A DNA stretch of 64,000 nt. It comes from Chiridota heheva. Lineage: Eukaryota > Echinodermata > Holothuroidea > Apodida > Chiridotidae. Below the pieces are notes generated by a model. That model was not told where the DNA came from and made no database searches. It worked only from the letters and a program-made list of their open reading frames with translations. The stretch lies in assembly GCA_020152595.1 (NCBI GenBank), contig JAIGNY010002171.1, positions 776,001-840,000 on the forward strand, written 5' to 3'. How positions within the stretch are numbered: position 1 is the first letter of the stretch; each line of letters starts with the position of its first letter. A program made the translations under genes and the position numbers. This document shows positions 21,601 to 24,600 of this stretch, piece after piece.

Positions 21601-24600
21601 CTAGGCAGCATGCCTGCAAATTGGAGTATTCAATGAAAATTATAGCCAAGTTGAACAGAACACTCCAATTTACATAACATAACAAGATTACGGGCTAAGG
21701 GTTAGTCACCCCATAAAAATCCCAAACTAACACCACCACCACCACAAAAAAAAAAAAAAATTATAAATCAAAGACGCCCAGAGTTAGTAAAGAACTTATC
21801 AATGTTGACCTTGAAATTGTGAACAGAATTGGAGCTAACTACCCACTTAGGCAAACCATTCCACTCATTAACAACTCTTTGCGAAAAGCTTAAATGCTGA
21901 ATACCTATCCGTGAAAACTCTATGGTCAACTTCAAACTGTTACCACATGTCACATGAGGATTAGCTGAAACATGCAAGAAATAACAGGAAGTCAAAGCAT
22001 CACTACAAAATAGGAACTTAAAAACCTGAATCATATTGTCACATACTCTTCTCAGCTCAAGCATGGTAAAACCAAGAATTGGCAACCTAGATTCATAAGA
22101 AAAATTTCTTACTTCGGGAATAAGTCCGGTGGCTCTTTGTTGAACCTGCTCAAAAATGAACTTATCCTTCTCATGAAAGGGAATCCAAGCCTGAATAGCA
22201 TACTCAAAGTGAGGCCTGACTAACTGCTTATACAAATTAAGAACCTCTCTACCAAGATAACAAAAATTTCTTATAATCAAACCAATCATCCTATTTGCCC
22301 TTGCAGCTGCTAAAGCACACTGTTTAGAAGGCTTCAGATTACTAGTAATGACAACACCTAGATTCCTTTCTTGATCAACACAACCAATATTTGAACCATT
22401 CATGCAGTAATCAAAAGCCAAATTGTTCGAGACGGGGTCAAAGCGCTTTTAGGGGGCCAAAGCCCAGAATCAGAAAAAATCAAAAATAAGACTAAGTTTC
22501 AGCTCCGTCACAGGTTGCGCTTTTGGTTGGCCCTCATTGGTGCATGGTGGGTCTCTTCTGCTCCCTATCCCATTTAACTTTTAGATCTACCACTAGGGTA
22601 CAGATATAAATCAATAAATCTATCTTAAATGAGGAAATATCACAATTATACGCAAAAAATTACACCAAATATTACAAAAATTTCCCCATTGACTTAACAC
22701 GCGGATTATTTTTGGAAAATAGACTAAGTCCCAGCTCCGTCACAGGTTGCGCTTTTGGTTGGCCCTCATTGGTGCATGATGGGTCCCTTCTGCTCCCTAC
22801 CCCATTTAACTTTTAGATCTACCCCTAGGGTACAGATATAAATCAATAAATCTATCTTATATGCAGAAATATCACAATTATACGCGGAAATGTACACCAA
22901 AAATTACAAAAATTTCCCCATTGACTTAACACGCGAATTATTTTTGGAAAATAAACTAAGTCCCAACTCCGTCACAGGTTGCGCTTTTGGTTGGCCCTCA
23001 TTGGTGCATGATGGGTCCCTTCTGCTCCCTACCCCATTTAACTTTTAGATCTACCCCTAGGGTACAGATATGAATTAAAAATCTATCTTAAATGCAGAAA
23101 TATCATAATTATACGAAATTTTACACCAGAAATTACAAAAGTTTCTCCATTGACTTAACACGGATTATTTTCTGAAAAAGAGTCCCAGCTCTGTCACAGG
23201 TTGCGCTTTTGGTTGGCCCTCATTGGTGCATGATGGGTCCCTTTTGCTCCCTACCCCATTTAACTTTTAGATCTACCCCTAGGGTACAGATATAAATCAA
23301 TAAATCTATCTTATATGCAGAAATATCACAATTATACGCGGAAATTTACACCGAAAATTACAAAATTTCCCCATTGACTTCCCCTTCTGCTCTCTACCCC
23401 ATTTAACTTTTAGAGTAGAAGGGACCCATCATGCACCAATGAGGGCCAACCAAAAGCGCAACCTGTGACGGAGCTGGGACTTAAGTCTATTTTCCGAAAA
23501 TAATCCGCATGTTAAGTCAATGGGGAAATTTTTGTAATTTTCGGTGTAAATTTTCGCGTATAATTGTGATATTTCTGCATTTAAGATAGATTTATTGATT
23601 TATATCTGTACCCTAGGGGTAGATCTAAAAGTTAAATGGGGTAGGGAGCAGAAGGGACCCATCATGCACCAATGAAGGCCAACCAAAAGCGCAACCTGTG
23701 GCGGAGCTGGGACTTAGTCTATTTTCCGAAAATAATCCGCATGTTAATTCAATGGGGAAATTTTTGTAATTTTTGGTGTAATTTTTCGCGTATAATTGTG
23801 ATATTTCTGCATTTAAGATAGATTTATTGATTTATATCTGTACCCTAGGGGTAGATCTAAAAGTTAAATGGGGTAGAGAGTAGAAGGGACCCATCATGCA
23901 CCAATGAGGGCCAGCCAAAAGCGCAACCTGTGACGGAGCTGGGACTTAAGTCAATTTTCCGAAAATAATCCGCATGCTAAGTCAATGGGGAAATTTGTGT
24001 AATTTTTGGTGTAATTTTTTGCGCATAATTGTGATATTTCTGCTTTTAAGATAGATTCATTGATTTATATCTGTACCCTAGGGGTAGATCTAAAAGTTAA
24101 ATGGGGTAGGGAGCAGAAGGGACCCATCATGCACCAATAAGGGCCAACCAAAAGCGCAACCTGTGACGGAGCTGGGACTTAGTTCATTTCCCGACTTGGC
24201 CACTGTACGCGCTCTGGCAACTCGGATTTCGGATTTGGCCTGCTCTAGCGCTTTAGCCCTACCTGAATTGTTCTGACCAAAATGAATAAATTTGCATTTA
24301 TCAACATTGAATGACATCTGCCATGTTTGGGACCAAGAAACTAACTTATCCAGATCAGTTTGCAAAAGTGAAGAATCCCTAGCATCATCAACAATCCTGT
24401 ACAGTTTAGTATCAGCAAATTTACAAATCCTGGAGCTAAGGGAAACATCAATATCAATAATGATGATTAAGAAAAGAAGCGGACCCAATACAGAAGCCTA
24501 AGGAACACCACTTTTTGTAATCTTCTTCCATGGATTAACAACAACTCTTTGTGACCTGTCAACTAACCAAGCTGGCACACTTTCCCTCCACACCAAGTGG

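Follow-up and report, generated by a model that had tools for sequence, protein, structure and literature searches.

TU of sea urchins and FB of Drosophila are foldback elements whose arms contain tandem repeats. TU makes 8-bp target-site duplications. The repeat units of both are short, ~15 bp in TU, against 232 bp in the element described here. Sea urchin foldback elements are also cited in the report on Tetris of Drosophila virilis, itself described as a non-coding foldback element for which no autonomous copy was found and whose arrays expanded into satellite DNA (PMC4079207). Like the family described here, Tetris is reported to have long inverted arms in which ~220-bp tandem repeats vary in number (PMC4079207), and Galileo to have arms of highly variable length that hold direct tandem repeats (PMC4168063). 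We have analyzed a stretch of 64,000 nucleotides from Chiridota heheva, hereafter the window, in which two opposed arrays of a 232-bp unit lie between short ends. Taking the explanation as a whole, this element very probably is a non-autonomous cut-and-paste foldback DNA transposon with satellite arms that can be resized.

The element and its insertion site

Direct reading of the sequence places a non-coding element of 1837 bp at 22429-24265 of the window, inserted in a LINE and flanked by perfect 8-bp duplications. Its parts and its host are as follows.

21771..22428, minus strand: host LINE, part after the insertion, open for ~219 codons (NNLAFDYC...)
22421..22428, plus strand: left target-site duplication AATTGTTC (sequence reading; unoccupied-site alignment)
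22429..22482, plus strand: left end (LT), 54 bp, starting GAGACGGGGTCAAAGCGCT (sequence reading; alignment with relatives)
22483..23380, plus strand: left arm, 3.9 direct copies of the 232-bp unit
23381..23414, plus strand: centre, with a 33-bp out-of-phase unit fragment (23382-23414) and the plus/minus inversion junction CTTTTAGA/GTAGAAGGG
23413..24194, minus strand: right arm, ~3.35 inverted copies of the 232-bp unit
24195..24265, minus strand: 71-bp right end (RT), with CAGGTAGGGCTAAAGCGCT as its outermost bases on that strand
24266..24273, plus strand: right target-site duplication AATTGTTC (sequence reading; unoccupied-site alignment)
24274..24600, minus strand: host LINE, part before the insertion (...KFIHFGQNN), in a frame with a stop
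58346..59262, plus strand: second copy of the host LINE, site unoccupied, with a single AATTGTTC (alignment; Pfam)

Long inverted arms of direct repeats, little or no middle and a flanking target duplication are hallmarks of foldback elements, and the original prediction had already recognized such a structure in the opposed direct and inverted unit arrays. It had also called the element non-coding, in agreement with our ORF scan, which found no open frame of 150 codons within it. The predicted 232-bp unit stands as well, but four plus four copies was slightly generous, given 3.9 plus a fragment and 3.35, and the arms, put at about 850 bp each, measure ~900 and ~780 bp. The seven long units of this copy are 89.5-96.1% identical in pairwise comparison. 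By manual count, 13 positions of its two 19-bp ends are the same, AAAGCGCT being exact; LT and RT are alike over ~40 bp, and 7 of 5000 shuffled end pairs aligned equally well. The window gave no Rfam match at gathering thresholds.

The element certainly inserted into the LINE. When the host flanks are joined, they align with the second LINE copy at 86% identity, with 47 gap positions over 689, and the sole gap at the junction is one element base kept in the join. The unoccupied site and the sequence reading thus both confirm the 8-bp duplication and an insertion point predicted to the base. The second copy encodes a reverse-transcriptase domain (PF00078, E 3.5e-30); Pfam gave no match for the open stretch of the interrupted host copy. 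From the stop in the frame before the insertion it follows that the host LINE copy has decayed.

Several other repeats lie in the window. One of them is present in two diverged copies (76-83%), at 19800-21590 and 53102-55206, of which one adjoins the host LINE; parts of it recur at 59977-60297 and 61460-61780. A 24-bp minisatellite of 156 copies (ATGAATGGGCTAACCTATCACTGT) occupies 5934-9659, a ~301-bp tandem repeat of about four copies lies at 51498-52742, and 122/172-bp arrays are found at 50764-51276.

A dispersed family with conserved ends

We searched the genome from which the window comes (1.1 Gb, 3744 contigs). The whole element gave at least 275 matches (best 40 of 130 candidates scored), RT at least 40 (best 40 of 86) and the left 60 bp at least 40 (best 40 of 51). 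Counted by hand, and taking in fragments and one segmental duplication, the family occupies at least 54 places, 48 from the whole-element and RT searches and six more from the left-60-bp search (C122, C3086, C2492, C1642, C826, C3225). The segmental duplication (L048 and L049) carries a truncated element and is 98.5% alike including its flanks; another locus, L060, is mostly N. For unit counts, 32 loci were parsed together and further loci separately. The result is a family that is mobile, occupies many sites and varies in arm length, as is characteristic of foldback elements; the genome hence contains the predicted dispersed copies, which share their ends, are flanked by 8-bp duplications and vary in unit number. 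Elsewhere, a 26-base piece of the unit had no exact match in genome_contigs or viral_contigs, a 30-base piece none in viral_contigs, and the element no blastn match in phages.

The ends of the family are conserved above all at their outer edge. In the 21 elements for which we aligned the left and the right end, the outermost 19 bp read GAGACGGGGTCAAAGCGCT on the left in 14 and CAGGTAGGGCTAAAGCGCT on the right in 18; the remaining outer ends differ by one or two bases, save the rearranged right end of L018. Farther inward, the ends of L006, L012, L045 and L053 differ by 13-24% from the consensus, in part owing to an early array start or a chimeric end.

We read the flanks of 27 elements, with L012 taken to its outer right end. 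An exact 8-bp duplication was present in 19, one with seven of eight bases in four, and no clean duplication in four.

Exact 8-bp duplication: L001, L002, L006, L009, L010, L011, L012, L015, L017, L019, L021, L022, L024, L025, L028, L045, L052, L053, L057
Seven of eight bases: L020, L058, L065, C1282
No clean duplication: L018 (six of eight, rearranged right end), L026 and L044 (truncated end), L027 (two left ends, mirrored flanks)

Array growth, the centre and the mobilising transposase

The elements contain from 1.8 units in total (L058, 550 bp) to 29.7 (L009, 7322 bp), and the smallest copies, L057 and L058, have about one unit per arm. These one-unit arms, together with the RT sequence found in composite units (see below), support the original proposal of growth by subterminal repeat expansion. 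Between the arms, L018, L020, L022, L024, L025 and L028 have a middle of ~590 bp that is 93.7-97.5% alike; it is also present in L016, L047, L050, L035 and L072 and partially in L017, L019 and L074. The middle of L022 contains no stop-to-stop frame above 67 codons, and the window copy shows no trace of this segment. We may picture an ancestor with 232-bp subterminal units beside each end, facing each other around the ~590-bp middle. Slippage, unequal exchange or copy repair following excision could then have added and removed units. As part of the element, the entire array would move along.

Relations among 225 full units are in agreement with only modest homogenisation within elements. Units of the same element are on average 0.056-0.060 apart and those of different elements 0.080. 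The nearest neighbour lay in another element for 152 of the 225 units, in the same arm for 68 and, for the remaining 5, in the other arm of their own element; we therefore regard homogenisation as weak, which counts against our overall reading. The unit tree of the window copy is weakly supported. Larger arrays did not have significantly less diverged ends (Spearman -0.41, p 0.07). A derivation of the plain unit from the terminal motif (GCGCTTTT..GGCC) was considered as well and is unsupported, with shuffled units matching as well: compared with the ends, shuffles were as good in 489 of 2000 cases for the left, 1541 of 2000 for the right and 202 of 300 in the three-way comparison.

The window copy, with 7.3 units, and L009, with 29.7, share the same centre, CTTTTAGA/GTAGAAGGG, at 97% over 267 bp. 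As the junction is the same despite a fourfold difference in unit number, the arrays must have been resized within one lineage after the junction had formed. In this lineage the middle would have been lost and the arrays joined head-on, plausibly via a strand switch at TCTA/TAGA. These two motifs, a 4-bp inverted repeat of the unit, bound the junction spacer exactly, and the centre of the window copy folds into a hairpin better than 200 of 200 shuffles. The exact bounds are suggestive only, and 3-4 bp matches are common. Moreover, the middle-less elements L002, L010, L012 and L021 have central junctions other than this one. For the centre alone, it is hence nearly as likely as not that there was no strand switch, that each middle-less form lost its middle in a deletion of its own, and that TCTA/TAGA match by chance.

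How such an element moves may be read from its ends and its target sites. Short terminal inverted repeats starting with CAG are usual for hAT elements; Ac-type hAT duplications follow the pattern nTnnnnAn, and nnnTAnnn is likewise a hAT duplication motif. In the family, the right end starts with CAG and the left end with GAG in 21 of 21 aligned elements, and an 8-bp target duplication, as in hAT elements, is the rule. Among 14 duplication sites, the first base is a purine in 12 and the last a pyrimidine in 13; nTnnnnAn occurs in none of the 14 and nnnTAnnn in four. The hAT-like label of the original prediction thus fits with the 8-bp duplication and the CAG of the right end and fits less well with the GAG of the left end and the autonomous partner not found. 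On balance, we favor a hAT transposase as the most likely one to mobilise the family; acting in trans, it would cut and insert the short conserved ends, leaving 8-bp duplications.

The same foldback element might instead be mobilised by a transposase of the P or Mutator superfamily, which we consider a weaker but serious alternative. The P superfamily is reported to contain foldback-like elements with tandem repeats in their arms, namely Galileo with its 7- or 8-bp duplications (PMC4168063), and Tetris, with duplications of 8-10 bp, was placed in Mutator by its authors (PMC4079207). The GAG start of the left end and the missing Ac-type motif point in the same direction. However, the duplications of the family, exactly 8 bp in 19 of 27 elements with four more at seven of eight, are tighter than those of Tetris, and the right end has the start usual for hAT.

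The original prediction had expected an autonomous relative with a hAT transposase. Among the fetched loci, taken from the best 40 candidates scored per end search, no copy had a transposase between family ends; C1282, which is 3.9 kb long and has both ends, and L071-L074 contain no open frame above 130 codons. We also rejected a decayed hAT transposase at C3672 as the partner. This copy begins 1.3 kb inward of a right end, and its Pfam order is zf-C17orf113 and DUF4371, both below cut-offs, followed by a weak hAT dimerisation match (E 0.028); a 177-aa piece alone had no Pfam match. The protein has 42 matches in the genome, and the three that were fetched, L067-L069, are a separate hAT element of ~3.6-4.2 kb that has its own ends (CAGGGTTCTAGCTA) and matches neither LT nor RT, nor the unit or the middle. 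L067 has an open frame of 759 codons with a hAT dimerisation domain above cut-off, and the separate element makes its own 8-bp duplications, TTTGAAAC in L067 and CTCTTAAC in L068. Because the C3672 protein family belongs to this other element, hAT is a likely and not a demonstrated class for the foldback family. The separate hAT family (L061 at C3672 with L066; L067 2705-4984; L069) also contains an in-gene 33-bp repeat that codes in frame for approximately AALLAFDTKIK, with one copy in L067, about ten at L069 and dozens in the C3672 gene.

Pieces of RT also occur within the arrays. They span about positions 9-60, lack the outermost 8 bp and were found at 18 of the 28 loci that have a left end (L014 and L023, with no left end in the stretch, were left out). 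Over these 28 loci, left arms contain 27 pieces and right arms 4, each with the orientation to the unit that RT has where it forms the actual right end. Of 18 composite units that we aligned, 14 are full forms that share one break, from about position 24 of the unit to RT position 9, and four have a form 8 bp shorter. The outermost eight RT bases, CAGGTAGG, are absent from all 18. Most simply, the internal RT pieces are not independent events but a single fusion spread by array exchange. At least one fusion of the unit, at ~position 24, to RT position 9 would have given a composite unit of ~325 bp, which would then have spread mostly in left arms.

The units may aid transposase binding. A bolder and rather improbable proposal is that the arms of a hAT-type family are self-amplifying arrays of end-derived sequence. 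RT pieces without the outermost 8 bases would have multiplied mostly in the opposite arm, each composite unit adding a putative landing site for the transposase without a cleavage site, so that selection for transposase capture would drive satellite growth. A natural chimeric end bears on what an end requires. The odd right end of L012 (4031-4112) consists of the outer 28 bp of RT fused to a complete LT, and the element is flanked by exact 8-bp duplications (AAATGACT) despite this chimeric end, which is either mobile or was made by conversion after insertion.

It is very improbable that the unit is an ordinary dispersed or centromeric satellite that forms an inverted array here by chance. Its arrays do get long, and the 7 kb fetched at L023 (C1327) contain ~21 units that all point the same way, a right end that is truncated and no left end; this array is possibly turning into free satellite. 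The window locus, however, has ends, exact duplications and an unoccupied site. Moreover, all 30 loci fetched by RT, repeat fetches of already analyzed elements included, have unit sequence close to the inner edge of the right end, so the end-less satellite named in the original prediction as its counter-case was not what we found. The distance was at most 30 bp in 28 of these loci and ~56 bp and ~90 bp in L033 and L051; in L056 this unit is inverted. A fold-back artefact of assembly is just as improbable: mirror-image arrays are hard to assemble, and L027 (C3188:2593-4440), with two left ends and flanks that are mutual reverse complements, has the look of either this kind of artefact or an inverted duplication, but the window copy has differing left and right ends and direct rather than mirrored flanks, and the same design recurs at many loci.

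Comparison with known foldback elements

The family provides a clear case of satellite-like arrays that are carried and resized inside a mobile element. One genome contains copies of one, several and thirty units with the same ends and exact duplications, and two of them share an inversion junction. In the literature searched, titles and abstract openings (outline and abstract for PMC2872659) described no hAT foldback element with satellite arms.

Among described systems, Xenopus miDNA4 resembles the family as a MITE that carries a tandem array of variable copy number (PMC12628747). It is, however, described as a Tc1/mariner MITE with an internal array (PMC12628747), whereas here two opposed arrays form the arms. 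Galileo is similar in that inner segments not belonging to the terminal inverted repeats were recruited into its arms and in having copies reduced to two arms (PMC4168063); in contrast to our family, its transposase is known, and its duplications are given as mostly 7 bp with a consensus, not 8 bp (PMC4168063).

Closest is Tetris which, as far as its description allows the comparison, has nearly the same design. In Tetris, too, the repeat and the outer arm have a stretch in common, and its duplications, reported as 8-10 bp, are of similar length (PMC4079207). It was, however, assigned to Mutator (PMC4079207), whereas our family most likely belongs to hAT. Outside the arrays, the described Tetris flanking domain reaches up to 866 bp (PMC4079207), compared with only 54 and 71 bp here. 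Unlike in Tetris as described, part of the right end is embedded in the array units, mostly in the left arm. What is particular here is thus that sequence of one end lies within array units, for the most part in the arm opposite to it, and that the ends outside the arrays are very small. As copies with one, several and thirty units are present and a junction is shared between two of them, the route from subterminal repeat to satellite array, as proposed for Tetris, can be traced in this family.
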